Below are positions 10,421 to 33,038 of a DNA stretch of 64,000 nucleotides, one piece after another (position 1 is the first letter of the stretch; each line of letters opens with the position of its first letter). The translations under genes and the position numbers were made by a program. A model generated the notes under the pieces. The model saw nothing but the letters and a program-made list of their open reading frames with translations. It was not told where the DNA came from and made no database searches. Source of the stretch: Kineosporia babensis (GTDB taxonomy: Bacteria > Actinomycetota > Actinomycetes > Actinomycetales > Kineosporiaceae); assembly GCF_021129305.1 (NCBI RefSeq), contig NZ_JAJOMB010000014.1, forward strand, positions 1 through 64,000. Reading direction: 5' to 3'.

Positions 10421-10439
10421 TAACGCGAGATGGGGAGAG

Positions 10440-11408: not shown

Positions 11409-13730
11409 TCACAGCCGGCAGGCCACCACCAGTTGCTGGCCGACCGCCGAGAGCGGGGTTCCCGGTTCCGGCACTGTGCTGAGCGAACGGAAACCGGCTT
11501 CGGCCAGTGCATGCCGGCACCCGTCGGGGCTGAGGAACACCGATCCTCCGGCCCGGGCGTCACTTTCCCCGGGCGGGGGCGTGTCGTCGCGCGGCGAGAG
11601 CAGGAACTGCATGGTGGCCAGAACCATCAGGTGCTCGCGAGTCGCCTCGGCCACGACCAGCAGCCCACCGGGGGCCAGCAGGGGCTGGATGTAGCGCAGT
11701 GATGCGCCGATGTCCTGGGCACAGTGCAGCACGTTCGCGGCGAGCACCACGTCGCTGCCGCCGGCGACGGCGCCCTGCTGCACCAGGTCGCGGTCGACGT
11801 CGAGCAGGGTGGTGCGGATCCGCTCGCCCCAGCGCTCCTGTGCCGCCTGGGTGAAGAAGCGTGAGATGTCACTGAAGCAGTAGTCCACGGAGTGGCCCTC
11901 GAGCCCGTCCAGGGCGGCCTCGGTGCCCCCGCCCGCTCCGCCACCCAGTTCCAGCACCCGCAGCGGACCACCTCGGGTGGCAGCGGCCTGGGCGAGCACG
12001 GATCCGGTTGCTCCGTGCAGGTATCCGTTGCTCAGGTTGCGCCGGTCCTTGTCCAGGGACCTGGCCATGTCGCCGTCAGGGAACAGCATGGCCTGCGCCG
12101 GGATCTCGTCCGAAAGCAGTTCCGGCAGGTGTTGCAGGGCGGTGCGGTAGAAGGTGGCCATCCCGGCGGGGTAGCCCAGCGCCGCGCAGGCGCGATCCAG
12201 CAGGGGGCCTTCCGGCTCCAGCATGGCCCGGTCGCGGGCCTGGGGCCCGGCCAGCACACTTTCCCAGCGCCGCAGGATCCACTCGTGCCGGGGCGCCACC
12301 TTGGGCCGCCCCTGGGCGAGGACTCGCTGCATGGCCTGCCGGGCGATGGCGTCGAGCTGATCGATGGCCGTCGGAATCCGCGACAGTGCCTCGTGCGTGA
12401 CGGGGATCCCGTCGCCACCGAGCGCGGTGCGTCCGGCCAGGTCAGCGGCCTGCACCGCGGCCCTGGTCGCCGCAGCGGAATGACCCGCGCCGGAGGGCAC
12501 GTGCACGGTGATGCCGGCCGGGCGGCCGTGTCCCGCCCTGCGCAGCTCGCGGCGGGCCGTCTCCAGAGCGCGGACGCGGGCGAAGGCGGCCAGCGGTTCG
12601 TGGGCCTGTCCCTGGGCGGCGAGCGCGCTGGGGGGCAGGGCGGCGGCAGCAACCGGGAGGGCCAGGCTCAGATGCCGGGGTGACCAGGGATCAAGGCCTA
12701 CGGCGGCGTCCCGGCCGTTCAGGGCTTGGCGCAGGTCCAGCCCGCGGATCGCGTCCGGCTCCGCCGACAGCGGCCGGTGCGGGATGCCGACCACCCGCAC
12801 CGGGCCGGTCAGCTGGGCCAGCGTCGCCGGGTCGGGTCGGCCCAGCTCCTCCCAGCTGCGCTGGGGGACGTCCGGCGAGGGGCTGTCGCCGACCCGGAAG
12901 ACCACGTCGTAGCGGTATCGGGTGAGTTCGTTGTCCGCGCTCAGGGTCTTGGCGAAGAAGGACAGCGTCACCGGCCGGGAAGCGGCGGCGGCCACCGCGG
13001 CCAGGGTGGCCGGGTCGTACAGGAGTTCCTCGTCCGCCTCAGCCGGATTCCCCGACCAGGCGGCCCAGTCCTCGTGCAGCCCGCTGTGCCGGATGTCGCC
13101 CAGCACCAGCGTGCCGCCTACCGGCAGCAGGTCGAGTGCGTCGTGCACGACGCCGGACAGGTAACTGACGTCCGGAAAGCACTGGCTCACCGAATTGATC
13201 AGGACACAGTCCGGCTGCAGCGCCTTCACGGCCGCACGGACCTGGGGGAGCCCGGTCTCATGGGCTGAGGCCTGCAGCACCTCGACCCCGGGCAGCCCGG
13301 CGGCGCGGTGCCGCTCGACCACGTCTGCGGCCACGTCCAGGCCCAGGTAGCCCTTCACCACCGGGGCCAGACGTCGCAGCAGCATCCCGCTGCCGCAGCC
13401 GATCTCCAGCACCCGGGTGGCCCCGGTGGACAGGACCAGTTCCGCGGTCCGGTCCGCCCACTCGCTCATCACCTCGGCCGGCAGCGGCTCACCGGTGTCG
13501 CTGGCCCGCCACCCGACAGTCTCCGCCGGTGGTGCTCCACCGACTTCCTGGTAAGTCCAGTCGTAGACCTCGGTCCAGTGGCCCAGATGATCGGCGACCA
13601 GCTCACCGGGCGCCGGACGGGCAGCCAGGACAGCCGGATCCAGGTGAATCTGCCAGTTTTCCCCGTCCTGGGTGACCTGCCGGAACCAGGGGTGAACCAT
13701 CTCTGCGCCGGTCTGGTCAGTGGTACTCAT
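11409..13730 (-). CDS. Stand-alone tandem methyltransferase (NRPS-type MT + PKS-type MT)
   Basis: This 773-residue protein consists of two different SAM methyltransferases. Residues about 45-300 look like the MT insert of NRPS modules: 'GHWTEVYDWTYQEV', a 'GWRASDTGEPLPAEVM' element, and SAM motif 'VLEIGCGSGMLLRRL'. Residues about 480-770 look like a PKS-type C-methyltransferase: 'WILRRWESVLAG', 'AMLFPDGDMARSL', SAM motif 'VLELGGGAGGGTEA', and 'LAANVLHCAQDI'. In yersiniabactin HMWP1 two such domains are embedded, one in the PKS module and one in the last NRPS module; the HMWP1-like protein here (18418-24843) has neither. I infer that this protein supplies both methylations in trans. It is the last gene of the biosynthetic operon; its start overlaps the preceding ATPase by four bases. 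Confidence 0.85.
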   Translation of the reverse strand: MSTTDQTGAEMVHPWFRQVTQDGENWQIHLDPAVLAARPAPGELVADHLGHWTEVYDWTYQEVGGAPPAETVGWRASDTGEPLPAEVMSEWADRTAELVLSTGATRVLEIGCGSGMLLRRLAPVVKGYLGLDVAADVVERHRAAGLPGVEVLQASAHETGLPQVRAAVKALQPDCVLINSVSQCFPDVSYLSGVVHDALDLLPVGGTLVLGDIRHSGLHEDWAAWSGNPAEADEELLYDPATLAAVAAAASRPVTLSFFAKTLSADNELTRYRYDVVFRVGDSPSPDVPQRSWEELGRPDPATLAQLTGPVRVVGIPHRPLSAEPDAIRGLDLRQALNGRDAAVGLDPWSPRHLSLALPVAAAALPPSALAAQGQAHEPLAAFARVRALETARRELRRAGHGRPAGITVHVPSGAGHSAAATRAAVQAADLAGRTALGGDGIPVTHEALSRIPTAIDQLDAIARQAMQRVLAQGRPKVAPRHEWILRRWESVLAGPQARDRAMLEPEGPLLDRACAALGYPAGMATFYRTALQHLPELLSDEIPAQAMLFPDGDMARSLDKDRRNLSNGYLHGATGSVLAQAAATRGGPLRVLELGGGAGGGTEAALDGLEGHSVDYCFSDISRFFTQAAQERWGERIRTTLLDVDRDLVQQGAVAGGSDVVLAANVLHCAQDIGASLRYIQPLLAPGGLLVVAEATREHLMVLATMQFLLSPRDDTPPPGESDARAGGSVFLSPDGCRHALAEAGFRSLSTVPEPGTPLSAVGQQLVVACRL

Positions 13731-15115
13731 ACAGCTCCCTTTTCTGTGCGGATCAGTGTTCCGTCGGCCAGGTGCAGCACACGGTCGGCGCGGTCGAGAA
13801 CGGCCGGGGAGTGAGTGACGGCGAGGATCGCCGGGCGGGTACCGGTGCCGTGGCGGCCCTCGCGCAGATCGCCGAGCAGGTCGAGAATCCGCTCGGCCGT
13901 CACCGCGTCCAGCGAGGCCGTCACCTCGTCCGCCAGCAGGATCTGCGGTCGCCCGGCCAGGGCACGGGCCAGCGACACCCGCTGACGCTGACCCCCGGAC
14001 AGTTGCCCGGGCCTGCGTTCCAGCACCTCCTCGGCGCGCAGCCCGACGGCTGCGAGCAACTCGCGCGCCTCGGCGCGGGCAGCGTGACGGTCCAGGCCGC
14101 GCAGCGTGCCCAGCGGCCTGAGCAGGGCGTCGCCGGCGCGGCGGGCCGGATTCAGCGAAGCAGCGGGATCCTGGGCCACGAGCGCGATCCGGCCCGGATC
14201 GGCGCGTTCACGCACCGGCCAGGGCAGAACCTCCCCGGCCGTCCACGCGGTGCCGGCCCAGGGCAGATGCAGCCCGGCCAGCGCTCGCAGTAGCGTCGAC
14301 TTCCCGCTGCCGGAAACCCCGCGCACCGCAACGAACTCACCAGGCTGCAGCTCCAGCTGGGCGTCGTTCAGAAGCGGCGGCGAGATCGGGTGCCCCAGCC
14401 GCAGGTTTGTCACGGTCAGGGCAGCCACCGCACTGTCCGGCCGAGGCCGGTTCTGCGGGCCTGGCTCTGGTGCAACAGGGATTTCGCCGACCCGGACCAC
14501 GGCGTCGGCCAGACGCCCGGCCAGGGCCTCGTCGTGGGTGACGAGCAGCGTGGCCATGCGCCCGGACCGGGCGCGTTCGCGGACCAGGTCCGCGACCAGT
14601 TCCAGCGTGCCCGGATCCAGCGCGCTGGTCGGCTCGTCGAGGACGAGCAGGTCCGGGTCTGCGGCGATCGCCCTGGCCAGGGCCACCCGCTGGGCCTGGC
14701 CACCCGAGAGCTGGTGCGGCCGTAGCTGCCGCACGCGCTGCGGATCCAGGCCGACCACGTGCAGCGCAGCGCTCACGTCGCCACCGAGTTCGCCCACGAT
14801 GCGCGCCACCGGCCAGGCCGGGTGCAGCGAACCGCGGGCGTCCTGGGCGACGTATCCGACGTGCGAGCGACGCCATGCGGCGCTTCGGGCGGGCCGGGGC
14901 TGCCCGTCCCACTCGATGCTGCCGCTTTCCAGGCGCAGCCCGGCCGGCAAAGTCCCCAGGGCAGCCAGCAACGCAGTGGTCTTGCCTGCTCCCGAAGGGC
15001 CCAGCAGGGCGACGATCGCGCCGCGGGGCACGCTCAGACCGAAATTGTGGACGATGGTGCGGCCCGTGGTGCTGCGCACCGACAGCGAGCGCACCCGCAG
15101 TCCGGAGCGGTTCAT
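13727..15115 (-). CDS. Fused double ATP-binding protein of an Opp/Nik-type ABC importer
   Basis: This 462-residue protein carries two ATPase domains. The first has Walker A 'GPSGAGKTT' near residue 38 and signature '[14 protein letters not shown]'; the second has 'GVSGSGKST' near 265 and '[14 protein letters not shown]'. Each has a Walker B ('DLLVLDEP', 'QILLADEV'). This corresponds to fused DppD/DppF-type (or CntD/CntF-type) subunits. ATG at 15115 overlaps the stop of the upstream permease; the frame is open further upstream only as a shadow of the permease gene. It energises the importer encoded by the three genes before it. Confidence 0.9.
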   Translation of the reverse strand: MNRSGLRVRSLSVRSTTGRTIVHNFGLSVPRGAIVALLGPSGAGKTTALLAALGTLPAGLRLESGSIEWDGQPRPARSAAWRRSHVGYVAQDARGSLHPAWPVARIVGELGGDVSAALHVVGLDPQRVRQLRPHQLSGGQAQRVALARAIAADPDLLVLDEPTSALDPGTLELVADLVRERARSGRMATLLVTHDEALAGRLADAVVRVGEIPVAPEPGPQNRPRPDSAVAALTVTNLRLGHPISPPLLNDAQLELQPGEFVAVRGVSGSGKSTLLRALAGLHLPWAGTAWTAGEVLPWPVRERADPGRIALVAQDPAASLNPARRAGDALLRPLGTLRGLDRHAARAEARELLAAVGLRAEEVLERRPGQLSGGQRQRVSLARALAGRPQILLADEVTASLDAVTAERILDLLGDLREGRHGTGTRPAILAVTHSPAVLDRADRVLHLADGTLIRTEKGAV

Positions 15116-15909
15116 CGCTGGGCCTGCCGGGCGGCGAAGGCGATCACGAGCGCCAGCACGGTCAGGGCGAAGGCCGGCGCGAGCACGGCGGCCGGGTTCA
15201 GCGGCATCCCGGTGAGGTTCTCGCGCAGCATGACCGCCCAGTCGGACGAGGGCGGGGCCGGCCCGTGGCCGAGCACGGCCAGAGCGGTCGCGAGCTGCAG
15301 GGCCAGCACGGCCCGGATGCCGAGGTCGGCGCTCAGCAACCCGCGATGGGCCGGGACGACCTCGCGCAGCAGGACCGTGAGGGTCGGTTCGCCGCGGCTC
15401 AGGGCCGCTTCGACGTAACCGGTGTGGCGGGCGTTGCGAGTCGCGTCGGCCACGACCCGCAGGGTGAGCGGCGCCCCGCCGAGCACCGTCGCGACGATCA
15501 CTGGCCAGGGCACCGGGACCGCCACCGCGATCACGAGCGCGACCAGGAGCAGAGGGAGCGCGAGCAGAAGATCGGCACCGGCGGCCACGGCCGAGCCCAC
15601 CCGGCTGCGGCTCCAGCCGGCCCAGAGCCCGATCACGGCACCACAGGACGTGGCGATGAGCGCGGCGGCCCCGGCCACCAGCGCCAGTTCCCGGCCACCG
15701 TGCAGCGTACGGGCCAGGACGTCCCGGCCCAGAGCGTCCGCACCGAGCGGGTGTTCGCCCGAGGGCGGGGACCAGGGCCGGGTGAGCGTCTGGGCCGGAT
15801 CGACGTCGGTCAGCCACCCACCGCACAAGGCGAGCACCAGGACGGCCGCGGCCGCCCCGGCCGGCGCCCAACGGACGAGCAGGCCCGATCGACGGGCAGT
15901 AGGGCTCAC
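15112..15909 (-). CDS. ABC transporter permease, DppC/NikC-like
   Basis: This 265-residue membrane protein has about six hydrophobic spans. It carries the N-terminal 'GEHPLGADALGRDVLAR' element that is a hallmark of DppC/NikC/CntC-type permeases, and an EAA-like loop near 'EAALSRGEPTLTVLLREVVP'. Its start overlaps the stop of the other permease by four bases and its stop overlaps the ATPase start. It is part of the Opp/Nik-type importer in the metallophore operon. Confidence 0.88.
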   Translation of the reverse strand: MSPTARRSGLLVRWAPAGAAAAVLVLALCGGWLTDVDPAQTLTRPWSPPSGEHPLGADALGRDVLARTLHGGRELALVAGAAALIATSCGAVIGLWAGWSRSRVGSAVAAGADLLLALPLLLVALVIAVAVPVPWPVIVATVLGGAPLTLRVVADATRNARHTGYVEAALSRGEPTLTVLLREVVPAHRGLLSADLGIRAVLALQLATALAVLGHGPAPPSSDWAVMLRENLTGMPLNPAAVLAPAFALTVLALVIAFAARQAQR

Positions 15910-16835
15910 GCGTGACTTCCTCGGGGATCGGTAAGAACGGCGACCACGTCGGCCAGCCAGAGGCCGAGGACGACAGCAAGGGCCACGAGCATGGCGACGG
16001 CCTGGACCACCGGGGCATCCCGGCTGCCGACGGAGGTGACCAGCAGCTCGCCGAGACCGGCCATTCCGAAAACACTTTCGACCAGAGTGGTGCCGGCGAT
16101 CAGAGAACCGGTGACGACCGCGAACGAGCGGACCGCCGTGGGTGCCACCGCTGGGACCAGGTAGCGAGCCAGGATGGTGCGCCGGGGCAGTCCCCGCACG
16201 CGGGCGTCCTTGACGTGGGGCAGGCCGGTGGCGTCCTCCAGCGCTCCTCGAAGAAGCGCGGCCGTGTAGGCGGCGGTGGGCAGAGCGAGCGTGAGAACCG
16301 GCAGGAACAGCAGGTCAGGGCGCGTCCAGGGAGCCTGGGCGGGGAGTAGGGAGACCGGCGGCACCAGATCCAGGGCCACAGAGAAGATCGCCACCAGGAC
16401 GACGGCCACCACCACCTGGGGGAGCGCGGCCACAGCGGTGGAGCCTGCGCTCACGATCGAGCGCAGGGCCGCCGGGCCCCGGGCCCCCGCCCAGGCCAGC
16501 ACCGCGGTCAGTGGAACGACCACCAGCAGGGACCCCAGGACGAGAGCCGAGGAGACCCACAGGCGTCCGGTCACCAGATCGGCCACCTCCCGGCCGGTGA
16601 CCAGCGACCGTCCGAGGTCTCCGGTCAGCAGCCCGGTCAGCCAGTCCGCCCAGCGCACCAGGACCGGCCGGTCGAGGCCGGCCTCGGCCCTGAGCGCAGC
16701 CAGTTGCTCGGCGCTGGCCCGGCCACCGCTGCGCACCTCGACGGCGTCTCCCGGGAGCGCGGCGGCCGCCAGGAACACCAGGAGCGAGGAGATCAGCAGC
16801 AGGAGCGCTGCCCGCAGCAGCGGCCGGAGCAGCAC
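15906..16835 (-). CDS. ABC transporter permease, DppB/NikB-like
   Basis: This 309-residue protein has an N-terminal membrane span ('LLLLISSLLVFLAAAALPGD'), the 'LTGDLGRSLVTGREV' motif of DppB/NikB permeases and further spans. The EAA-like loop is 'VRGLPRRTILARYLVPAV' and the C-terminal region is 'TTLVESVFGMAGLGELLV'. The GTG start lies directly after the binding-protein stop. It pairs with the DppC-like permease to form the channel. Confidence 0.88.
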   Translation of the reverse strand: MLLRPLLRAALLLLISSLLVFLAAAALPGDAVEVRSGGRASAEQLAALRAEAGLDRPVLVRWADWLTGLLTGDLGRSLVTGREVADLVTGRLWVSSALVLGSLLVVVPLTAVLAWAGARGPAALRSIVSAGSTAVAALPQVVVAVVLVAIFSVALDLVPPVSLLPAQAPWTRPDLLFLPVLTLALPTAAYTAALLRGALEDATGLPHVKDARVRGLPRRTILARYLVPAVAPTAVRSFAVVTGSLIAGTTLVESVFGMAGLGELLVTSVGSRDAPVVQAVAMLVALAVVLGLWLADVVAVLTDPRGSHA

Positions 16836-16836
16836 G

Positions 16837-18372
16837 TCAGTTCGCCAGCTTGACCTGGTCGACGAAGGCCGTGGCGAAGCCGATGCCCTGGGGCAGGCCG
16901 CTGAGCCCGGGAGCGGTCAGGTCCAGCCGGTCACTGACCGCCCAGACCGCGTAGCCACCCTCGTCGCGCAGCCGGGTCTGCAGCTCACCCAGCTGCTCGC
17001 GGCGGGTGGCCTCGTCCGGCTCGGCGAGCGCCGTCGCCAGGTCGGCCGACCACTTCTTGTCCTCCCAGGCCGTCTCGTTACTGGGTGAGCCCGGGGTCAG
17101 GGCCACCCGGACCACGTCCAGGAAGCCGATCCCCCCGAGATAGCTCAGGTAGAAGGGCTTCTGACCGTAGACGTCCACGAAGTAGCTGTCCGGCGGGGAC
17201 AGCTCGACCTTGGCCCGGATACCGATCTCGGCCAGTTGCTCGCTGATCAGGGTGGCGGCGGTGTCCATCCCGGCGTAGGCGGTGGTGGAGTACAGGGTGA
17301 TGTCGACGCCGTCGGCCAGGCCGGCCTGGGCCATCAGTTCCTTGGCCTTCGCCAGGTCCTGCTCGCGCTGCGGCAGGTCCGGGCTGGAGACGTCGGCCGG
17401 GGTAATCAGGTCGTTGCCGAGGTCGCCGTAGCCGAGGAAGACGGTGTCCAGCAGTTGCTGGCGGTCCAGGGCCAGGCGCACGGCCTCACGCACCAGCGGG
17501 TCGTCGAAGGGCTTGGTGTCGGTGCGCATGGTCAGGGGGTACATCGTCGATCCGGGAATTTCCGCCAGAGCAGCGGTTTCCTTGTCGAGGGTCTGCGCCG
17601 CGGTGGCCGGCACAGCGCCGGCCCAGTCGACCTCGCCGGCCAGGAGCGCGTCGGCGCGCGCCTGCGGGTCGGGAATGGCCCGGACCTCGATGTGCTGGGA
17701 CGGCGGCTGCGGGCCCCACCAGTCGTCGTTGCGGTCGAACAGCGCGGTCTGGGCGTCACCACCGGCCGGCACGAACGGGCCGGAGCCCGCGACCGGGGTC
17801 TCGCCGGTGAAGTCGGTGCTGCCCTCGGGCACCACGAACGTGGCACCGGCCAGGGCGATCCCGACCTCGGCGTAGGGCTCCGTCGTCACCAGTTCGAGGG
17901 TGTTCTCGTCGACCGCGGAGGACTTCTTCAGGTCGAACATCCGCAGCCGGGCGAAGTTCTCGGCGGCCTTCTCCTCCATCCGCCGCAGCGAGAAGAGAGC
18001 GTCCGCGGCCCTCACGGGTTCGCCGTCGGAAAAGACGGCGTCATCGCGCAGCTCGATCGTCCAGGTCGTCAGCTTCTCGTCCGGGGTCCACGAGGTAGCC
18101 AGCCGCGGCTGGGCCTCCCCGTCCGGGCCGGGAACGGTCAGCGGGTCGTAAGTCAGCGCCATCCGGACGATGTCGCTCTCACCCGGCAGCAGCCCGTGCG
18201 GGTCGTCGGTGGCCACGGTGGGCGAGCCGGGCGCCGCGTACCGCACCGTCTCGGCCACCCCCTCGGCGCCCGTGTCACTGGAAGAGCCGCTGGAAGAGTC
18301 GCTGGATGACGAGCACCCCGCCAGCAGGGCGGCTGTCACGGCAGCAGCCAGTAGGGGTGAACGGGATCTCAT
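16837..18372 (-). CDS. Family 5 solute-binding lipoprotein (Opp/Nik/Cnt type)
   Basis: This 511-residue lipoprotein has a signal peptide with lipobox 'LLAGC' (acylated Cys at residue 20) and a Ser-rich tether. It then shows the SBP_bac_5 fold: 'YDPLTVPGPDGEAQPRLATS', 'DDAVFSDGEPVRAADALFSL', 'DDPLVREAVRLALDRQQLL'. Such proteins bind peptides, nickel chelates or opine metallophores. It lies 45 bases after the PKS/NRPS gene in the same orientation and is followed without gaps by two permeases and an ATPase. The likely role is to capture the metal-loaded product of the assembly line; this is inferred from its operon position. Confidence 0.87.
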   Translation of the reverse strand: MRSRSPLLAAAVTAALLAGCSSSSDSSSGSSSDTGAEGVAETVRYAAPGSPTVATDDPHGLLPGESDIVRMALTYDPLTVPGPDGEAQPRLATSWTPDEKLTTWTIELRDDAVFSDGEPVRAADALFSLRRMEEKAAENFARLRMFDLKKSSAVDENTLELVTTEPYAEVGIALAGATFVVPEGSTDFTGETPVAGSGPFVPAGGDAQTALFDRNDDWWGPQPPSQHIEVRAIPDPQARADALLAGEVDWAGAVPATAAQTLDKETAALAEIPGSTMYPLTMRTDTKPFDDPLVREAVRLALDRQQLLDTVFLGYGDLGNDLITPADVSSPDLPQREQDLAKAKELMAQAGLADGVDITLYSTTAYAGMDTAATLISEQLAEIGIRAKVELSPPDSYFVDVYGQKPFYLSYLGGIGFLDVVRVALTPGSPSNETAWEDKKWSADLATALAEPDEATRREQLGELQTRLRDEGGYAVWAVSDRLDLTAPGLSGLPQGIGFATAFVDQVKLAN

Positions 18373-18417
18373 GGTGGTGCCTTTCCTGATGGGTTTCGGT
18401 GAGGAGTTGAGGGAGAT

Positions 18418-24843: not shown

Positions 24844-27800
24844 CCGGCCACCTCCAGCGCCCGGGCACGCGCCGCGCGACGCTCGGCCGCGGGATCACCG
24901 GTGGCCGGTTCTGGCGGCAGCGGTGGTGCCACCGGTAGGTCGGGTACTTCCGGGGCGTTCAGGTGCGCGGTGATGCAGCCACTCAGTCCGCGTACCGTCG
25001 GGTGGGCGAACAAATCCACCACGCTGAGACTTGCGTCAATCTCGCCGCGGAGGCGGCGGTGCGCCAGCACCAGGGTCAGGGAGGTGGCGCCGAGAGCGAA
25101 GAAGGGCGTGTCCGGGTCGATCAGGGGGATCTCCAGTAGTTCGGCGAAGACGGCCTCGATCGCGGCCTGCACGGCCGGGTCCGGGGCACGAGTCGCGGAG
25201 GGTGGCGAGACCAGGGTTGGTGCCTGGCCGGTCGATGCCTCGACCGGGGGAGTGGTTTCGGCCGGGGCACCGAGCAGCACCTCGACCAGGCCGGAGCTGC
25301 CGAGCCGGGCCTCGTGCGGTACCCGGGCCTGCTCGAGCTGGTTCTGGATCCGGCGCGCCCAGTCGGAGGCGGCGGCCAGGGCCTCGGCCGGGCCGAGTTC
25401 GCCCGGCTGGACCGTCAACTGCAGTTTCAGGCCCCGTCCGGTGGCCTCGCTCCAGGCCGTCTCGAGGGACCAAGGGGTCAGCGGCCCGGTATCCGGTACC
25501 GAGGCGGGCTTCGGCTCCCGAAGATAGGGATTCGGCAGGGCGTTCGGGTCGACCTTGCCGTTGGCGGTGATCGGCAGTGCGCTCTCGTGCACGAAGCGGC
25601 TGGGCACCATGTACTCGGGCAGGTGCGCCCGCAGCGCGGCGACCAGGTCGGCATCGCTGGGCGCGGCACCCGGTTCGGGCACGAGATGGCAGACCAGCCG
25701 GGGACGTCCGTCGGGTCCGGTCACCGAGCGGGCGACCGCCTGCCGTACCCCCGCGAGGCGGTCCAGGGTGGCCTCGATCTCGCCTAGTTCGATGCGGTGA
25801 CCGCGGATCTTCACCTGGCGGTCGGCCCGCCCGAGGAACTGCAGAGTACCGTCGGGGCGCCATTTGCCGAGGTCGCCGGTGCGGTAGACGCGGCCCAGCA
25901 GCGGATGCTCGACGAACCGATGAGCGGTCTGCTCGGCATCACCGAGGTATTCACGGGCCAGGCCGTCGCCACCGATGTGCAGTTCACCGGTCTCACCGAC
26001 CGGACTGGGCGTGCCGTCCTCGTCGAGGACGTCGATGCGCTGACCACGCAGCGCCCGGCCGTAGGGGATCGACGGCCAGGCCGGGTCGACGTCCCCGATC
26101 GGGTAGCAGATCGACCAGATCGAGGCCTCGGTCGCACCGCCCAGGCTCACCACCAGCGCCTGCGGGGCCAGCGCCCGGATCCGGTCGGGCAGGGTGACCG
26201 GGACCCAGTCACCCGACAGGAACACCAGGCGCAGCGTCGACAGCGCCTTCCGGGCGGTCTCGGTCTCCAGTTCGGCGTACTCGACCAGCATCTCCATCAG
26301 GGCAGGGGCGGTGTTCCACACCGTCACCCGGTGCCGTCCCATCAGTTCCAGCCAGTGCTCGGGGTCGCGGGTGTGCGCCGGCTCGGGCAGTACCAGGGCA
26401 CCGCCGCGGCCGAGCAGGGCGTAGATGTCCCACACCGACAGGTCGAAACTGGCCGCCGACAGTGCCAGGACGCGGTCGTCGGGGCGCAGCGGGAACCGCT
26501 CGTCCAGGTCGTCCAGGGTGGTGCGGGCCGCCTGGTGCTCGATCGCAACTCCCTTCGGGGTGCCGGTGGAGCCGGAGGTGAAGATGGCGTAGGCCAGATC
26601 CGCGGGTTCGGCTGCCCGGAGCACCGCCTCATCGCCCGGGTCCCCCTCCGGCGGTACGAGGACCCCGTTCTCGTCGAGCTGGTGAACCGTTACCGATTCG
26701 GGCCATTGGCCGGGATCAGCGCCGGGCCCGACGAGGGCGTGTCGCAGATCTGCTCGTGCGCACACCGACTCCACCCGGGCGGCAGGCCATTCGGGCTCGA
26801 CCGGGACGTAACCGGCGCCACTGGCCGAGACCCCGAGCAGCGCGGTCACCAGGGGCGAGCCCTTCTGCGCGGAGACGCCCACCAGGTCGCCCGGCCCCAG
26901 CCCCAGGGCGGCAAGGGCACGGCCGGTGGCGGTACTGCGCCGGGCGAGCACGCCCGCGGTCACCGGGCCGGAGGCACCCAGGAGGGCCGGGGCGTCCGGC
27001 CGGCGCTGTGCGGCAGCTCGGAACGGGTCGTCCAGCAGCGGCCCACTGTCGTCGAAAGCATCTGCAGGAACTGGGCTCTGAGGGAGGAAGGTCGGGTCGA
27101 CGGAGAGCTGAGGGTCGCTCCAGGCGGACTCGTCGGTGGCGAGTTGCCGGAGAAGCTGGGTGTGTGCGTCGCGCATCCCCTCGGCGAATCCGTCCGGGAG
27201 CGCGCCGTCGCACACGTCCCAGCACACCTCCAGCGCACCGCCGGCGTCGGTGACGATGTGGTCGATCAGGACCTGAGGGCTCTGCGAGACGCCGAAGACC
27301 TGGGTGCCCAGCCAGTCGGTGGCCGGGGCGTCGCTCAGGCCGACTCCGCTGGTGAAGACCACGGGGTGCCGCGGCACGGGAAGGCCGCTTTCGGCGTCGT
27401 GGTTGCGGGGGAGCACCTCGACGGCCGAGACGGCGCGATGGTCCAGGTCGGTCCAGAAGCGCTGGTTGAGCGCGGTGGCGAAGCTGACGAAGTCGCTCCA
27501 GCCGATCGCTCCCACCTCGACCAGGACCGTGGTGGTGAAGTCTCCCACCACCGAGCCGGACCCGGTCGGTTCGTCCTCGTCCACCGGGCGGTCGAAGAGC
27601 GTGGTGTTCAGGCAGAACGGTTCCGCGGCGCCCCATCTGCGCAGCACCAGGGCGTAGGCGGCGAGCAGGAGCCCGGTCGGGCTCAGGCCTCGCCGGCCGG
27701 CCTCGGCGCGCAGTTGTTTCCAGGCCGCGGCGCTGAGCCTTCCGGTGTGCCGGGTGACCCGGGGGACTCCCATCTCGGCGATCGGCCGGGTCCAGGGGAG

Positions 27801-28766
27801 GGCGGGCCCCGAGGGCAGTTCGGCCATCCGGCCCGACCACCAGGCAGCGTCTGCGGATCGGCGCTGCTGGGCCTGGACATCGGCTCGTCGCCGGGCCTGA
27901 AGGTCGGCGAAAGTGTCGGTGAGAACGGGAAGCTGGGCTTCGGGATCGGCGCTCAGCGCTCCCCACTCCCGCATCAGCAGCAGCCAGCTGTGCAGGTCCA
28001 GGGCCAGTACATCGACACCGAGGAAGATCCGGGTGCGGCCGTCGGGCAGCAGCGCCGCGCGGATGTCGAACATCGGCCAGGCATCGACCGGGCGCAACTG
28101 GTGCGAGCACTCGTGCCGAAGGTCGGCCAGCCTGCGGGCGGCGGTGGCGTCATCGTGGTGGCGCAGATCCTCGGTGGCGATCCGGTACCCGGGGACGTCG
28201 GGCAGGATCCGCTGCCGGGCATCCGGCCCGACCGTCATCCGGAGCATCGGATGCCGATGCATCAGCTGATTCCAAGCCTGGGAGAGGCTTTCGACGTCTT
28301 CCCGGGGATCGCCCGCCGGCTCACGGTCGAACTCGTGGTAGTAGAAGGTCCCGACACCACCCAGAGGGAACGCCGGGTCCCGGCCGACCAGATAGGCAGC
28401 CTGGATGGGAGTCAGGGGAAAGGACTCGTCATCCGGGTCGCCGACAAGGTCGACGGCAGGGACCTTCTCCAGCGCGTCGGATGGCAGGGCAACAGCGCCG
28501 GCCTCTTCGTCCAGGACCACGCCCGCGGCAAGTGTACGGGCGGTCGCGGCTCCGAGGAAGGCCGTGAGTGGCAGGTCTAGATCCAGGTCGGCCCTCAGGC
28601 GGCGGCGAAGGCGCACCGCAGCAAAGGATTCCAGGCCAAGAGAGGTCAGGGATGCGTCTGCGTCCAGTTCATCGGGGTCGGCCCCCAGCACGTCGGAGAG
28701 GCACTCCAGTACCTCGGACACCGGGACGATGTGGTCACGACCGGGCTGTGGGTCGGGGGTGCTCAC
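24840..28766 (-). CDS. NRPS, HMWP2-like first half: ArCP-Cy-A(Cys)-PCP
   Basis: This 1308-residue protein has four domains. The N-terminal aryl-type carrier has 'SLTSLGLESF' (phosphopantetheine Ser near residue 47). The Cy domain (about 115-545) has DxxxxDxxS as 'DVLALDLHS' near 249. The A domain (about 590-1090) has 'AIFTSGSTGTPKG', 'GELHIGGDGLAREYL' and 'NGKVDPNALP'. The PCP has 'FFALGATSLTLV' near 1222. Reading pocket residues by eye against GrsA gives D-L-W-N-F-S-L-I-W-K, close to the remembered cysteine code DLYN(L/M)SLIWK, so Cys is predicted. About 80 residues between A and PCP ('PWSLETAWSEATGRGLKLQL' onward) match no domain I know. GTG at 28766 follows GGGAGG. It is the first gene of the leftward operon, 30 bases from a Zur box. 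No starter ligase is nearby. Confidence 0.92.
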   Translation of the reverse strand: MSTPDPQPGRDHIVPVSEVLECLSDVLGADPDELDADASLTSLGLESFAAVRLRRRLRADLDLDLPLTAFLGAATARTLAAGVVLDEEAGAVALPSDALEKVPAVDLVGDPDDESFPLTPIQAAYLVGRDPAFPLGGVGTFYYHEFDREPAGDPREDVESLSQAWNQLMHRHPMLRMTVGPDARQRILPDVPGYRIATEDLRHHDDATAARRLADLRHECSHQLRPVDAWPMFDIRAALLPDGRTRIFLGVDVLALDLHSWLLLMREWGALSADPEAQLPVLTDTFADLQARRRADVQAQQRRSADAAWWSGRMAELPSGPALPWTRPIAEMGVPRVTRHTGRLSAAAWKQLRAEAGRRGLSPTGLLLAAYALVLRRWGAAEPFCLNTTLFDRPVDEDEPTGSGSVVGDFTTTVLVEVGAIGWSDFVSFATALNQRFWTDLDHRAVSAVEVLPRNHDAESGLPVPRHPVVFTSGVGLSDAPATDWLGTQVFGVSQSPQVLIDHIVTDAGGALEVCWDVCDGALPDGFAEGMRDAHTQLLRQLATDESAWSDPQLSVDPTFLPQSPVPADAFDDSGPLLDDPFRAAAQRRPDAPALLGASGPVTAGVLARRSTATGRALAALGLGPGDLVGVSAQKGSPLVTALLGVSASGAGYVPVEPEWPAARVESVCARADLRHALVGPGADPGQWPESVTVHQLDENGVLVPPEGDPGDEAVLRAAEPADLAYAIFTSGSTGTPKGVAIEHQAARTTLDDLDERFPLRPDDRVLALSAASFDLSVWDIYALLGRGGALVLPEPAHTRDPEHWLELMGRHRVTVWNTAPALMEMLVEYAELETETARKALSTLRLVFLSGDWVPVTLPDRIRALAPQALVVSLGGATEASIWSICYPIGDVDPAWPSIPYGRALRGQRIDVLDEDGTPSPVGETGELHIGGDGLAREYLGDAEQTAHRFVEHPLLGRVYRTGDLGKWRPDGTLQFLGRADRQVKIRGHRIELGEIEATLDRLAGVRQAVARSVTGPDGRPRLVCHLVPEPGAAPSDADLVAALRAHLPEYMVPSRFVHESALPITANGKVDPNALPNPYLREPKPASVPDTGPLTPWSLETAWSEATGRGLKLQLTVQPGELGPAEALAAASDWARRIQNQLEQARVPHEARLGSSGLVEVLLGAPAETTPPVEASTGQAPTLVSPPSATRAPDPAVQAAIEAVFAELLEIPLIDPDTPFFALGATSLTLVLAHRRLRGEIDASLSVVDLFAHPTVRGLSGCITAHLNAPEVPDLPVAPPLPPEPATGDPAAERRAARARALEVAG

Positions 28767-28796
28767 GGTGATCCTCCCGGAGGGTGAAGCTTTGGG

Positions 28797-28811
28797 TGAG
28801 AATGGTTATCA
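28797..28811. promoter_or_regulatory. Candidate Zur box, NRPS side of the bidirectional promoter
   Basis: TGAGAATGGTTATCA matches 11 of 12 fixed positions of TGANAATNATTNTCA. It lies 30 bases upstream of the leftward NRPS GTG. Confidence 0.75.
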
Positions 28812-28840
28812 TCCTTACACGATCCAGGTTCCATGGGTAA

Positions 28841-28855
28841 TGGTAATCATTCTCA
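28841..28855. promoter_or_regulatory. Candidate Zur box, methyltransferase side of the bidirectional promoter
   Basis: TGGTAATCATTCTCA matches 11 of 12 fixed positions of TGANAATNATTNTCA. It lies 21 bases upstream of the rightward methyltransferase GTG. With the box at 28797 it forms a pair whose centres are 44 bases apart, about four helical turns. Confidence 0.78.
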
Positions 28856-28876
28856 AAACGTGGTTAGTATCGGGGT

Positions 28877-29953
28877 GTGGAAGAAGCGCTCGCTGCGGCA
28901 GTGGCCGACCTGGACAACCTCGTCCTGCTGGGTCTGGCGGAGTTTCTGGGACGGGAAAGCGACTGGCCGGGACCGGATGTCGATGCTGGCCAGGTGGCCG
29001 ATGCCGTGAAGGTCGAGGCCCGCCACCGGTGGGTGGTCGGCCATTGGCTGAGCGAGCTGGACCGGGCGGGCGTGCGCAGCAGGCCCTCGCAGCGCGAGCT
29101 GCGAGCCGCACGCCGGGCCTGTGCGCCGGCTCTGCTGCGCCTGGGTTACGGCCCTGCGCTCGGTGACCTGCTGGTGAACTCGCTGCGGTTGCTGCCCGAG
29201 CTCCTCACCGGTGTCGTGAACGTACAGACCCTGCTCTATCCGGACGGCGACGTCGCGACGACCGAGGTGGCCTACCGGACCAACGCGGTCAGCCGGAACC
29301 TGAATCAGCTGGCCGCGAGCCGGGCAGCGGAGACGGCCCGGCGCTCGGGCCGCGCGGTCCGGGTGCTCGAACTCGGCGCGGGCATCGGAACAACGGCCGC
29401 CGACCTGCTGCCTGCACTGGGTGGGACTCCCGCCGGCATCGGTGAGTACCGATACACCGACCTGTCCAGCTTCTTTCTGCACCACGGTCGGGAACGCTTC
29501 GGATCGGCCCCCTACCTGCGGTTCGAGGTGCTCGACATCGACGACATCGGACCGGAGAACATCGAGCAGCTGCAGGTTTCGGGACTGTGCGACCTGGACC
29601 TCGTGGTGGCCGGCACGATGGCGCACAATGCTCGTGACGTGGATCGGCTGGCCGCAGGGCTGACCGGGATCCTGGCCCCCGGTGGCCGGCTGATCCTGAT
29701 CGAGCCGGTCCGGGAACACGCCCAGTCGCTGACCACGATGCCGTTCGCGCTCTCCACCGCTACCGGCGCCCCCCGGCGGACCGACCTCAGAGCCGGAACC
29801 ACCCGGACGTACCTGAGCGCCCAGGAGTGGACCGACGTCCTCACCGGGGCCGGATTCAGGGTGGATCCGATTCTCCCGGCCCCGCACGACCCACTCCGCG
29901 CCTTCTCCCAGGCCCTCATCACCGCCACCAACGACCAGAGGAGATCGCAGTGA
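28877..29953 (+). CDS. SAM-dependent methyltransferase, PKS/NRPS accessory type
   Basis: This 358-residue protein has an N-terminal helical region, then 'TLLYPDGDVATTEVAYRTN', a pre-motif seen in PKS C-methyltransferase domains and in the second half of the tandem methyltransferase here ('AMLFPDGDMARSL'). SAM motif I is 'VLELGAGIGTTAADLLP' near residue 157, followed by 'FEVLDIDDIG' and 'LAPGGRLILIEPVREH'. GTG at 28877 lies 21 bases from a Zur box and has a poor ribosome-binding site, so the transcript may be nearly leaderless. It is the first gene of the rightward arm and overlaps the next NRPS gene by four bases. It may replace the MT-like domain embedded in HMWP2 in the classical system. 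Confidence 0.82.
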   Translation: MEEALAAAVADLDNLVLLGLAEFLGRESDWPGPDVDAGQVADAVKVEARHRWVVGHWLSELDRAGVRSRPSQRELRAARRACAPALLRLGYGPALGDLLVNSLRLLPELLTGVVNVQTLLYPDGDVATTEVAYRTNAVSRNLNQLAASRAAETARRSGRAVRVLELGAGIGTTAADLLPALGGTPAGIGEYRYTDLSSFFLHHGRERFGSAPYLRFEVLDIDDIGPENIEQLQVSGLCDLDLVVAGTMAHNARDVDRLAAGLTGILAPGGRLILIEPVREHAQSLTTMPFALSTATGAPRRTDLRAGTTRTYLSAQEWTDVLTGAGFRVDPILPAPHDPLRAFSQALITATNDQRRSQ

Positions 29954-31959
29954 GCAGCACCCCGGCCGCCCCGGCCACCCCGGAGACCAGCCCGGAGACC
30001 GTCCCGGACGAGGACCGCCTGGAGGTCAGGCTCGCGCGGATCTGGGCCGCCCTGCTGGATCTCGATCCAGATCGCGTGCCGACGGACGTGAGCTTCCTGG
30101 AAATGGGCGGTGACTCGGTTCTTTCGGTCCGGCTGTCCGCACAGGTGCGGGCGGCGACGTCGGTTCAGCTGGCGCTGGCGGACGTCCGGGTGGAGATCAC
30201 CCTGGACGAGTTGGCCGCCCTGGTCCGCCGGCGCTCCAGCGACGCCCCCTCGGCCCGCGATCTTCCCGCACAGATCACCCCGCGGGCCGACGCCACCGCC
30301 GAGTTCTCCCTGCTTCCCCTGCAGCAGGGGTATTTCGTCGGCCAGCAGGACGGCTGGGAGCTGTCCTACGAGTCGGCGCACTACTACCTGGACTACGGTC
30401 TGATCGGGGTGGACGGGGACGATGCGCCGGAGGCGCTGGCCGACGCGGTCGCCCGTCTCGCCGAGCACCAGCCGACCCTGCGCGCCCGGATCACCCCGGA
30501 CGGACGACAGCGTCTGCTGCCGCTGGACGCACCGGGCGCGGTACCGCCGGTGCAGGTGCTCGACCTTCGCGACCGTGAACCGCAGGACGTTGCGAAGGAA
30601 CTCGGTGACCTGCGCCAGGCGATGAGCAGCCGCGGTCCGGACCCGGTCAATGCCTCGGCGCTCGACGTTCGCCTGACCCTGTTGCCCGGCGGCGAGGGCC
30701 GTCTGCACCTGGGGATGAGCCTGCTGGTGTTCGACGGCTGGTCGGCCGGTGCGATGAACCGCGACCTGCTGGCCTTCCTGGCCGACTGGAACGCGGTCCT
30801 GCCCGCGCTCGAGATCGATTTCGGGGACTACGTCAGCGCTCTGGACGGGTTGCAGACCTCCGAGGCCTGGCTGGCCGACCGGGACTGGTGGTGGGCCCGT
30901 CTGGACACCCTCCCGCAGCCGCCGGCCCTTCCGCTGATCGCCGACCCCCACGACGTGGCTCCGGTGACCATGGGCAACCGGGAGCACCGGTGGTCGGACG
31001 AACGCTGGTCGGCGGTCCGGGCCCAGTGTTCCGAACGCGGGGTGACACCCTCGACGGCGATGCTCACGGCGTTCTCCGTGGTTCTGGCCCGATGGTCGGG
31101 CCACCACCGGCTGCTGCTGAACTCGCTTCAGCTGAACCGTCTTCCGTTGCACCCCGACGTCCACCGGATCGTCGGTGCCTTCGCGGCCACCATGTTCCTG
31201 CCGGTGGACCTGACCCCGGGCAGCACCTTCGCCGAGCTGGCCACCGGAGCGCAGACCCGTTCCGGTGAGTACATCGCGCACAACCTGATTTCCGGCGTCG
31301 AGGTCGGCCGGGAGCTGGCCCGGCGGCGGGGCACCCGCCGCCCGGTGGGACCCATCGTCTTCCAGTCCGTCCTGGGCGTGGATGCCGCGATGGGCGGTCG
31401 CACCTCCACAGACGCCGGTCCGCTCGGTGAGACCAACGTGACCGACTACAGCCATCAGCTGCGTACCCCCCAGGTGGCCCTGGAACTACGCTGTTTCGAG
31501 ATCGGGGACCAGGTCGTCACGGTTTTCTCGCTGGTCGACGAGCTTTTCGAGGCCGACCAGGTGACCCGGGCGTTCGACGAGTTCATCGCGATCGTCGACG
31601 CCCTGGCCGAGCCGGCCGGCTGGTCGGCGATCCCTGAGCTGCCCGAGGACAGCGAGCCCTCGAACCCCGCGGACGGGGAACTGCGGCTCGGCCTGCTGCC
31701 GGAGGCGGCGAGCGCGACGCACACCGGTCCGCTGGAGGACGACCTGGAGATGACCGTGGCCGAGGTCTTCGAGGATCTGCTGGAGGTGCCGGTACTCGAC
31801 CGTGGTGCCGACTTCTTCGCCCTCGGCGGAGACTCGCTGCTCGCGGTCCGGGCGGTCACCCGGCTGGCCCGGGCCCTGGGCACGACGGTTCCGGTGCGGG
31901 ACTTCCTGGCCGACCCGACAGTGGCCGGCGTCGCGCTGATGGTGCGGGCCGCCCGGTGA
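29950..31959 (+). CDS. NRPS, HMWP2-like second half: PCP-Cy-PCP
   Basis: This 669-residue protein has a first carrier with 'FLEMGGDSVLSV' (Ser near residue 56), a condensation/cyclisation-type domain (about 115-560), and a second carrier with 'FFALGGDSLLAV' (Ser near 627). The middle domain begins 'LLPLQQGYFVGQQ', as in Cy domains, but its signature is 'SLLVFDGWS' near 257: the first Asp of DxxxxDxxS is Ser, while the second Asp and the Ser are kept. There is no A domain, so cysteine must be loaded by the A domain of the other NRPS in trans. The order PCP-Cy-PCP equals the C-terminal third of HMWP2. GTG at 29950 overlaps the methyltransferase stop (GTGA). Confidence 0.88.
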   Translation: MSSTPAAPATPETSPETVPDEDRLEVRLARIWAALLDLDPDRVPTDVSFLEMGGDSVLSVRLSAQVRAATSVQLALADVRVEITLDELAALVRRRSSDAPSARDLPAQITPRADATAEFSLLPLQQGYFVGQQDGWELSYESAHYYLDYGLIGVDGDDAPEALADAVARLAEHQPTLRARITPDGRQRLLPLDAPGAVPPVQVLDLRDREPQDVAKELGDLRQAMSSRGPDPVNASALDVRLTLLPGGEGRLHLGMSLLVFDGWSAGAMNRDLLAFLADWNAVLPALEIDFGDYVSALDGLQTSEAWLADRDWWWARLDTLPQPPALPLIADPHDVAPVTMGNREHRWSDERWSAVRAQCSERGVTPSTAMLTAFSVVLARWSGHHRLLLNSLQLNRLPLHPDVHRIVGAFAATMFLPVDLTPGSTFAELATGAQTRSGEYIAHNLISGVEVGRELARRRGTRRPVGPIVFQSVLGVDAAMGGRTSTDAGPLGETNVTDYSHQLRTPQVALELRCFEIGDQVVTVFSLVDELFEADQVTRAFDEFIAIVDALAEPAGWSAIPELPEDSEPSNPADGELRLGLLPEAASATHTGPLEDDLEMTVAEVFEDLLEVPVLDRGADFFALGGDSLLAVRAVTRLARALGTTVPVRDFLADPTVAGVALMVRAAR

Positions 31960-33038
31960 AGCCCCTGATCGGGGTGCTGGGTGCCTCGGGCGAGGTCGGG
32001 CGCGTGGCGGCCGACCGGATCGCCGCGGCCGGGCTCGGCCGGTTGCGGGTGGGTGGCCGTGACCGGGCCAAGGCGGAGAAGGTGGCCCAGGAACTGCCGC
32101 TGGCCGCGGATGCGCCGCCGGTGGAGGTGCAGGCGGTCGATCTCGACGACGACGAAGCGCTGGCCAGGTTCTGCGAAGGGTGCGCGGTCGTCGTCAACTG
32201 TGCCGGCCCGTCGTACCGGGTGCTCGACCGGGTCGCCCGGGCGGCCTGGGCAGCCGGCGCCGATCACGTCGACGTCGGTGGTGAACTGGTGGCCCGGGAC
32301 GCGCTGGCGAGCTCGGCGGACGGGAAACGGATCGCGATCTTCTCCGCCGGGGTGATGCCTGGGCTCTCCGGCCTGCTGCCGCGACTGCTGGCCGTGCGTC
32401 CGCTGCGGCGGATGGAGACGTACGTGGGAGGTGCTGCCCGGTTCACGTCGATCTCGGCTGTGGACGCTCTGCTCACCCGAGGCGATCGGTTCGGGACTGC
32501 ACAGGCGTCCTGGGTGGACGGGGCGATCCGCCCGAACGTCCTGGGCCCGCTGCGTAACGTCGTCCTTCCCGGGTTCCCGCAGCCGATGCAGGCGCTACCG
32601 TTCCTCACCACGGAGGCCCAGGAACTGCCGGCCCGAGAAGTCAGGGCATACAACGTTTTCGCCTCCGACCGGATCCCCGCGGCACTCACCCAGGCCTGGG
32701 CGGAACTTCCGGTTGGCGCCAGTGCCGAGGAGCTACGGCCGTACGCCCCGGACGTCGTGTCGGCGGCGGATTCGGACGTGGATGAGTACGGCGCGTTCTA
32801 CGTGCTGCTGGTCTCGGCGCGGCCTGAACCTGGCGGTCCGCCGGGGCCGGGCCGCGTGGTGATGCGGGCCACCGACTCCTACGCCCTGAGCGGGGTGGTG
32901 ATGGCGGCGGCGGCGCGAGCCGTCCTTGAGGGAACGTTGGTGCCCGGATCGCATCTGGCGGCCGAGGCACTGGACCCCTTCGCTGTCGCCGAGATCCTGC
33001 GCGCGGATCCGCTCGTGCACGAACTGACCGTGGTCTGA
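31956..33038 (+). CDS. Saccharopine-dehydrogenase-like NADP-binding reductase
   Basis: This 360-residue protein has an N-terminal Rossmann motif 'IGVLGASGEVGRVAADRIAA', the 'VVVNCAGPSYRVLDRVARAA' and 'ADHVDVGGELVARDAL' stretches of saccharopine dehydrogenase NADP-binding domains, and a C-terminal domain without a clear catalytic signature. It is the third gene of the rightward Zur-boxed arm, overlapping the NRPS stop by four bases. Yersiniabactin and pyochelin clusters encode a thiazolinyl imide reductase (Irp3/PchG) of a different Rossmann family; none is present here. This enzyme may take its place and reduce a thiazoline to a thiazolidine. That role is inferred from position and chemistry only. 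Confidence 0.78.
   Translation: MKPLIGVLGASGEVGRVAADRIAAAGLGRLRVGGRDRAKAEKVAQELPLAADAPPVEVQAVDLDDDEALARFCEGCAVVVNCAGPSYRVLDRVARAAWAAGADHVDVGGELVARDALASSADGKRIAIFSAGVMPGLSGLLPRLLAVRPLRRMETYVGGAARFTSISAVDALLTRGDRFGTAQASWVDGAIRPNVLGPLRNVVLPGFPQPMQALPFLTTEAQELPAREVRAYNVFASDRIPAALTQAWAELPVGASAEELRPYAPDVVSAADSDVDEYGAFYVLLVSARPEPGGPPGPGRVVMRATDSYALSGVVMAAAARAVLEGTLVPGSHLAAEALDPFAVAEILRADPLVHELTVV

Follow-up and report, generated by a model that had tools for sequence, protein, structure and literature searches.

A divergent gene cluster of Kineosporia babensis is best explained as a Zur-repressed pathway that would make a thiazoline metallophore and re-import it for zinc, a reading whose probability we put at roughly 60%. 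The cluster lies in a 64,000-nucleotide stretch, called the window below, that covers positions 1 to 64000 of contig C6 in a 9.4-Mb genome of 89 contigs. From the centre outward, the minus-strand arm carries nrps1 (a nonribosomal peptide synthetase [NRPS] gene), pks (a polyketide synthase [PKS]-NRPS hybrid), a binding protein, two permeases, a fused double ATPase, and a tandem methyltransferase; the divergent plus-strand arm carries, in order, the methyltransferase gene mt1, nrps2, and a reductase. A first-pass annotation of the same DNA had described split modules in five proteins on two divergent arms, and domain annotation located all five where it had placed them. The transporter (13727-18372), the reductase, a dithiol oxidase, and a methyltransferase (9652-10386) were absent from its gene list, yet they are conserved with the cluster. 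Because the oxidase and the 9652-type methyltransferase belong to the core shared with related loci, the cluster edge reaches about position 9652.

The pattern GAGAATNATTATCA, allowing up to two mismatches, has nine matches in the window compared with 0.09 expected; the nine include two places counted on both strands and a match at 51631 that has no zinc gene nearby. At the same threshold, TGAKAATNATTMTCA has 15 sites in the genome compared with one for the reversed control. Six of the 15 fall in the window: at cobW/rpmB, at rpmG, at a Zur paralogue, between the methyltransferase/oxidase pair, and twice before nrps1/mt1, where the boxes are two palindromes. Elsewhere in the genome, sites of this kind stand directly before a ZnuA gene (PF01297, E 4e-51), 34 bases before a second cobW gene, 35 bases before an ATP-binding cassette (ABC) ATPase gene, and beside a uppS gene (PF01255) and the genome's best Fur-family gene. 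Typically, zur adjoins uppS and recO. The ribosomal proteins encoded in the window also fit a zinc regulon, with no cysteine in the L31-, L36-, L33-, and S14-type proteins and one in the L28-type protein. The regulator at 9119-9559 has its best PDB matches in 3mwm and 7vo0 (E 2e-32), followed by FurB 2o03 (1.2e-27) and, far behind, Fur structures from 1.5e-12. The uppS-linked site is on contig C45, near 325222-326241 (L059), where it accompanies a second Zur-like gene; at C4:219170 (L056), a one-mismatch site lies near an SMI1/KNR4 gene. The two Zur-like regulators of this genome may divide the regulon. The features are as follows.

6150..6515 (approximate), minus strand: rpmE-/rpmJ-type ribosomal protein genes, cysteine-free (zinc-independent paralogues), named by eye from the translation
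6544..7719, minus strand: CobW/COG0523 GTPase (Pfam CobW_C); the closest NCBIfam model is MRF (ribosome hibernation, NF047431), at 142 bits, under its cut-off of 375
7668..7682: Zur-type box between cobW and rpmB (pattern and matrix scans)
7731..8658 (first start approximate), plus strand: rpmB-, rpmG-, and rpsN-type ribosomal protein genes, named by eye from the translation
8098..8112: Zur-type box before rpmG, zero mismatches to the pattern
9053..9067: Zur-type box before the Zur paralogue (pattern scan)
9119..9559, plus strand: Zur-family regulator, the Zur paralogue (Pfam FUR; PDB matches)
9652..10386, minus strand: methyltransferase kept with the cluster (Pfam; relatives; alignment)
10406..10420: Zur-type box between this methyltransferase and the oxidase (pattern scan)
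about 10437..11363, plus strand: HlmI/DepH/GliT-type dithiol oxidase with a CPFCHGYE motif (PDB sequence matches)
11409..13730, minus strand: tandem methyltransferase (Pfam; PDB 5wmm and 5thy)
13727..15121, minus strand: fused double ABC ATPase of the NikDE/DppDF type
15112..15909, minus strand: OppC/NikC-type permease (position and translation; homologues in 9 of 10 relatives)
15906..16835, minus strand: OppB/NikB-type permease (Pfam BPD_transp_1; NCBIfam nickel permease models under cut-off)
16837..18372, minus strand: NikA/CntA-type substrate-binding lipoprotein (Pfam SBP_bac_5; NikA and CntA models; PDB)
18418..24843, minus strand: pks, a PKS-NRPS predicted as KS-AT-KR-ACP-Cy-TE, with canonical Cy residues and no PCP of its own
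24840..28766, minus strand: nrps1, predicted as carrier-Cy-A-PCP, with the A domain code DLWNFSLIW (cysteine type)
28797..28811: Zur-type box 1 of the divergent nrps1/mt1 promoter (pattern and matrix scans)
28841..28855: Zur-type box 2 of the same promoter (pattern and matrix scans)
28877..29953, plus strand: mt1, a stand-alone C-methyltransferase-like protein (Pfam Methyltransf_12; PDB CurJ, 7e-19)
about 29950..31959, plus strand: nrps2, predicted as PCP-Cy-PCP, with altered Cy residues
31956..33038, plus strand: saccharopine-dehydrogenase-like reductase, of the SrbE kind by Pfam family (PF03435, 1.5e-12)

The cluster belongs to a widespread gene family. Scanning genome contigs for nrps2 returned 30 loci, namely, 29 from actinobacteria (54-70% identity) and one from Chitinophaga (L055, 23%), which we excluded from the family counts; the closest relatives, at 69-70%, are from Nonomuraea and Planomonospora. 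Ten 40-kb regions of relatives were read for gene content, and all ten share nrps1, pks, the first tandem methyltransferase domain, at least one C-methyltransferase, nrps2, the reductase, the oxidase, and the 9652-type methyltransferase (28% identity in Umezawaea, 34-44% in the others). The NikA/CntA-type importer is present in nine of them, and two C-methyltransferases occur in six and one in four. The combination of split modules and trans methyltransferases, presented as unfamiliar in the first-pass annotation, is an architecture common to many actinobacterial contigs. The tandem methyltransferase is full length, at 45-59% identity, in 11 of 18 genomes (in one as three adjoining in-frame matches), and its halves lie apart in Salinispora, Umezawaea, Lentzea, Amycolatopsis keratiniphila, and two Nonomuraea genomes. 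As separate observations, the first half is broken over two frames in Amycolatopsis decaplanina (L078/L079), and in L033 and L070/L071 (parvosata) the matches to nrps1, to one permease, and to mt1 are each split in two, through sequencing errors or decay. Of 393 other genomes sampled across the class, 7 have nrps2, all of one other family and none of the same order as Kineosporia, and no full-length tandem methyltransferase was found in 147 other genomes from relatives, where the best match spans 395 residues at 37%. Given these two distributions, the cluster was likely acquired horizontally.

Zur-type boxes recur in these relatives. Under the strict pattern, 8 of the 29 loci hold a total of 10 sites, of which 7 lie at cluster promoters; three shuffles gave 0, 0, and 1. 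A matrix was also built from five zinc-gene sites of the K. babensis genome, none of them from the cluster, and its scores were ranked over whole loci for 23 of the 29 relatives, L035, L042, L046, L050, L052, and L053 being left out as loci with no promoter interval set. The top locus-wide score falls in the cluster promoter in 20 of the 23 and ranks second, second, and third there in the other three. Two boxes are spaced 48-49 bases from each other in ten Nonomuraea/Planomonospora loci, compared with 44 in the window; a single box is present in three Rhodococcus loci, and in relatives with another gene order a box lies between oxidase and reductase. Control of the cluster by Zur, which the first-pass annotation had asserted without evidence, is therefore well supported at the level of sequence by the two boxes in the nrps1/mt1 promoter, the same motif before zinc genes, and the boxes in relatives.

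Several observations weigh against this interpretation. Five of the nine sites outside the window have no recognised zinc link, 21 of the 29 relatives have no site under the strict pattern (up to two mismatches), the promoter intervals for matrix scoring were set after the sequences had been inspected, and the low scores among relatives (11.8-17) overlap those of the best non-zinc positions in the window (18.8 and 16.4). Moreover, Zur and Fur boxes are alike, and one cluster box is three mismatches from the E. coli-type Fur box. This resemblance, together with the iron binding of yersiniabactin-type compounds, would suit an iron siderophore under a Fur-type regulator, in which case the likeness to Zur boxes would mislead. 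We regard that scenario as very improbable: the same motif precedes ZnuA, cobW, and cysteine-free ribosomal protein genes, the regulator is closest to Zur/FurB, and iron control in actinobacteria is usually exerted by DtxR/IdeR.

The assembly line itself points to cysteine-derived heterocycles. The core encodes a single A domain, and its specificity code is of the cysteine type, reading DLWNFSLIW in the window and DL[YFH]N[FLM]SLIW across ten relatives. For comparison, the general code for cysteine is DLYNLSLIW, and the A domain of HMWP2, aligned with these, reads DLYNMSMIW (the E. coli Nissle copies of HMWP1 and HMWP2 served as the yersiniabactin reference throughout). In pks, only a short linker separates Cy from TE, with no PCP there, so the carrier of the last cysteine has to work in trans. 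The Cy domains of nrps1 and pks keep all three canonical positions (D....D, T, and D) in 11 of 11 loci, as do HMWP Cy1-3.

The Cy domain of nrps2 differs at each of these positions. According to one study, the Thr-Asp dyad of Cy domains and a nearby Gln form a putative cyclodehydration set, and the DxxxxD aspartates are structural (PMC9547227). In nrps2, S....D stands for D....D, Thr is replaced by Gln, the dyad Asp by Glu, and Arg occupies the Gln place. We aligned 37 such sequences, the window included, and at each position excluded the 1 to 3 with a gap from the counts; not all are independent, as L089 and L090 may repeat L030 and L029. At the first Asp, 35 of the 36 covered sequences have Ser and one has Asn; at Thr, 33 of 34 have Gln and one has Leu; and the exchanges of the dyad Asp for Glu and of Gln for Arg each occur in 34 of 34. 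Such constancy suggests that the domain has been retained for another role, the simplest being to condense without closing the ring. An open cysteine thiol from this step is plausible, since the catalytic Asp is missing from every covered sequence. PchE carries Ala at the Thr place and nrps1 Cy carries Ile at the Gln place, so these two positions are not absolute requirements, and the constant Gln, Glu, and Arg may, against our interpretation, reflect other chemistry rather than an absent ring. Three cyclising Cy domains, as in yersiniabactin, are thus not what the sequence predicts, the middle one lacking the Thr-Asp dyad, and the poly-thiazoline product proposed in the first-pass annotation does not suit a middle Cy that has lost the residues linked to cyclodehydration.

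That annotation had read the cluster as a dismantled yersiniabactin line with all HMWP1/HMWP2 domains present and a poly-thiazoline/thiazolidine zinc chelator as its predicted product. Spelled out as a rival to our interpretation, this would be a salicylate- or aryl-capped poly-thiazoline zincophore whose aryl acid is made and activated by unlinked genes. The similarity is extensive: nrps1 residues 8-1031 align with residues 13-1007 in the first half of HMWP2 at 37%, ArCP (aryl carrier protein) included, pks aligns with HMWP1 at 38% (KS-AT) and 29% (KR-ACP-Cy), both systems have five carriers and three Cy domains, and E. coli Nissle is described as using yersiniabactin as a zincophore (PMC8636617). 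Yet in the trees the canonical Cy domains of nrps1 and pks group with each other (support 1.0) and not with HMWP Cy1-3, those of nrps2 make up a second clade, and the C-methyltransferase domains likewise fall in a clade of their own, with no one-to-one partners. Descent by splitting of HMWP1/HMWP2 was therefore not supported, and neither was the label of a dismantled yersiniabactin line.

The start of the chain bears on the same question. The first carrier of nrps1, taken as an ArCP in the first-pass annotation, reads GLESFAAVRL where the HMWP2 ArCP reads GLDSIRLM. In the 11 loci this carrier has GLESF, GLDSF, or GIDSY followed by [TA]AVRLRR and never GLDSIR (0 of 11), an aryl-carrier rule drawn from HMWP2 and other known examples. 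Its PDB matches are weak (best 1.5e-4), with PKS and fatty acid synthase acyl carriers on top. It nonetheless aligns with the HMWP2 ArCP inside the long match, and that ArCP is marginally its nearest carrier in a poorly resolved tree with long branches (5.88 versus 5.95) that leaves the nature of this carrier undecided. No match to YbtS or YbtU was found at any of the 11 loci, where YbtE matches NRPS A domains only. For YbtT, two loci gave matches to stand-alone thioesterases, and a third locus gave a weak one to the thioesterase of a PKS. Judged by gene content, a linked aryl route, including a salicylate synthase, is absent from the loci. Among 22 cluster genomes, a salicylate synthase scores above cut-off in 3, K. 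babensis not among them, and a dihydroxybenzoate-AMP ligase model exceeds its strict cut-off of 723.55 in 1. The ligase model has no match at E 1e-60 in 3 of the 22 and matches of only about 210-230 bits in 7 more. In the remaining 12, K. babensis included, a strong aryl-AMP-ligase-like match (above 550 bits) lies away from the cluster; in K. babensis this is C6:217847-219430, on the same contig but well outside the window, with 590.8 bits to TIGR02275. These unlinked genes may supply an aryl starter and so count against our interpretation; also against it, no starter-loading enzyme was found in the core or in the flanking genes as far as annotated. On balance, an aryl (salicylate) start is unlikely for most cluster carriers, and we find the aryl-capped zincophore as a whole quite unlikely.

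A thiol would fit the oxidase of the core. The flavoprotein at about 10437-11363 matches 4ntd (7e-51), which we take to be HlmI, as well as DepH (5e-43) and GliT (5e-34), and the oxidoreductase 3fbs is also close. Its CPFCHG motif is present in 11 of 11 loci, and in the ten relatives the gene always sits within the cluster, adjoining the tandem methyltransferase in seven and lying between nrps2 and the reductase in three. HlmI, DepH, and GliT are described as disulphide-forming enzymes of natural products (PMC11317636). An open cysteine would make sense beside a dithiol oxidase in a cluster under zinc control, suggesting that the altered Cy and the oxidase may serve a single thiol/disulphide pathway.

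The oxidase also admits two other explanations. The same source describes a relative of these enzymes, DnoP, that is induced by zinc shortage in Pseudomonas aeruginosa, and its accessible text places DnoP in no biosynthetic cluster (PMC11317636). By analogy, the flavoprotein could be purely protective, a defence against foreign dithiol zinc chelators that shares only Zur control with the cluster, and the product need then hold no thiol. We consider this doubtful, though a real possibility; the constant place of the oxidase inside the cluster, seen in all ten relatives, suits a pathway enzyme better. Alternatively, the product could function as gliotoxin or holomycin do, as an antibiotic with zinc-binding thiols that is made when zinc is short and starves competitors, with the oxidase giving self-protection and the ABC transporter acting in re-uptake or being unrelated. 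The oxidase family is described as closing the disulphides of holomycin, romidepsin, and gliotoxin (PMC11317636), gliotoxin-type compounds are described as zinc chelators (PMC10500201), and A. decaplanina has the oxidase and the synthases without the importer. With the importer kept inside the cluster in nine of ten relatives, we judge an antibiotic improbable.

The methyltransferases stand apart from the synthases, as the first-pass annotation had claimed for both the tandem protein and mt1. Domain 1 of the tandem protein resembles an NRPS M domain (5wmm, presumably the N-methylating interrupted A domain of TioS) and does not group with the epimerase-like domain of HMWP2; domain 2 resembles C-methyltransferases, the enzyme type of CurJ, the PDB match of mt1. 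The second tandem half and mt1 fall in one partly intermixed clade (support 0.98) apart from HMWP1 MT1 and MT2, and by sequence match both are nearer MT1 than MT2, so that pairing either with a particular yersiniabactin methyltransferase was not possible. For the methyltransferase at 9652-10386, considered as an S-methyltransferase, no PDB match was obtained at E 0.001. The reductase, whose predicted structure has a mean predicted local distance difference test score of 91.2, was rejected as an Irp3-like (YbtU-type) enzyme, as it has no match to YbtU and is of the PF03435 type; its only PDB matches are antibody light chains, which we take as chance.

The importer would close the cycle. Its binding protein matches the NikA model at 4e-35 and the CntA model at 6e-20, both under cut-off, and its PDB matches include NikA structures, among others. 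A frame listed as one open reading frame at 13727-16075 was rejected as a single protein, its first part running out of frame over the permease at 15112-15909. Two points tell against an import role in zinc supply: the family also transports nickel and peptides, and the A. decaplanina cluster lacks the importer. In the partly annotated flanks of relatives, a stand-alone thioesterase occurs in two of ten and a major facilitator superfamily (MFS) transporter in two of ten. The MFS proteins, at L073:15281-16672 (minus strand, Rhodococcus) and L084:10545-11840 (plus strand, A. keratiniphila), are 49% alike, and this recurring transporter might be an exporter.

Taken together, the data suggest the following pathway for a Zur-controlled thiazoline/thiol zincophore family, our best reading of these loci. 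Under zinc shortage, Zur would leave the two nrps1/mt1 boxes and the methyltransferase/oxidase box, and both arms would be expressed. The sole A domain would load cysteine onto several carriers, as in yersiniabactin. The Cy of nrps1 would couple the starter to cysteine and close a thiazoline; the altered Cy of nrps2 would add a second cysteine, leaving the ring open and the thiol in place; pks would add a malonyl-type unit and reduce it; and its Cy would add a third cysteine, carried in trans by a PCP of nrps2, before the chain is freed by TE. Bound intermediates would be worked on by the SrbE-type reductase and by the methyltransferases in trans, the dithiol oxidase would close or protect thiols inside the producer, and the NikA/CntA-type importer would bring the zinc complex back. 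Of the zinc chelator predicted in the first-pass annotation, a heterocycle-type metallophore with a probable role in zinc supply stands, and the poly-thiazoline backbone is not supported.

A more specific version of this zincophore model is a redox-gated one. In it, selection would have kept the converted Cy, one or two thiols would bind zinc, the oxidase would store the compound in the producer as a harmless disulphide, redox state would set zinc binding and release, and a non-aryl starter (cysteine or other) would enter without a dedicated ligase. We consider it unlikely in this complete form, but if true, it would define a class of zincophores with thiol ligands and a built-in redox switch across many actinobacterial genera. 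A thiol, if present, would link zinc nutrition to dithiol chemistry, and the cluster makes two sharp predictions, an open cysteine and a disulphide. The chelator-based metallophore rule of antiSMASH is described as omitting NRPS-derived thiazolines, and its authors state that separating zincophores from siderophores will likely need regulatory elements (PMC12971057). The present family supplies such an element in its promoter motif, along with a core that numbers up to twelve genes and 29 named contigs among which producers can be sought.

Other parts of the window are recorded here for completeness. The minus-strand genes at 1953-5990 encode a FecCD permease, a Peripla_BP_2 lipoprotein, and an ABC ATPase plus methyltransferase; the best NCBIfam model for the permease and binding protein is a putative F420-0 transporter, under cut-off, and a weak Zur-like site (three mismatches) lies at 5657, inside the permease gene. 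Adjoining the cluster, an 820-residue protein (34155-36617, plus strand) has only a FlgD Ig-like domain, near its end, by Pfam. In the region 44765-54630, which is perhaps a sugar or amino-sugar uptake locus, a second importer of the Opp type (48386-53692) is accompanied by two ROK-family genes, CutC, and an M81/MlrC-like gene. A 766-residue frame at 57916-60216 (plus strand), after a GntR/FCD regulator gene, has no Pfam match at E 0.001. No Rfam elements or tRNAs were found in the window.

Literature searches aimed at a described cluster of this architecture found none, subscription papers and MIBiG lying outside their coverage; the first-pass annotation had named such a cluster as what would speak against it. 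The closest comparison is the yersiniabactin synthetase, which shares one cysteine A domain, three Cy domains, KS-AT-KR-ACP, TE, C-methyltransferases, and five carriers, with long blocks at 29-38% identity. In contrast to it, the present cluster spreads its modules over three proteins, has all methyltransferases in trans and no PCP beside TE, and combines an altered middle Cy with an added oxidase, a NikA-type importer, and Zur-type boxes; its loci match neither YbtS nor YbtU, and match YbtE only through NRPS A domains. Coelibactin of Streptomyces coelicolor is described as being under Zur (PMC6103462). Sorangibactin is described as requiring the saccharopine-dehydrogenase-type SrbE and the trans methyltransferases SrbF/G; SrbE, assigned to the Pfam family of our reductase (PF03435), is of a kind also found in the coelibactin cluster, and the structure of coelibactin is given as still unproven (PMC10127202). 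By described Pfam family, the reductase here may be of the SrbE kind, and the present cluster likewise has trans methyltransferases. Sorangibactin differs in having a salicylate synthase, a salicyl ligase, a P450, and an Irp3-type reductase, with no PKS in the accessible description (PMC10127202), whereas the cluster loci have a PKS module and no match to a salicylate synthase (0 of 11), salicyl ligase, or Irp3-type reductase.

The photoxenobactin/piscibactin (pxb) line offers a parallel for the altered Cy: in this PKS/NRPS, itself similar to that of yersiniabactin, condensation without ring closure has been proposed for some Cy domains, which would leave amides or thioesters, and the products have reactive sulphur termini. 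The pxb line differs in its salicylate start and large HMWP1-like protein, and the accessible text describes no zinc link or dithiol oxidase (PMC9396620). The importer has the parts of the Nik/Cnt systems, a binding protein, two permeases, and two ATPase domains, but its ATPases are fused and its scores lie well under the curated cut-offs. Finally, HlmI, DepH, GliT, and DnoP are of the same sequence family as the flavoprotein and share its CxxC motif (PMC11317636), whereas the oxidase here lies inside a thiazoline-type NRPS/PKS cluster with Zur-type boxes.

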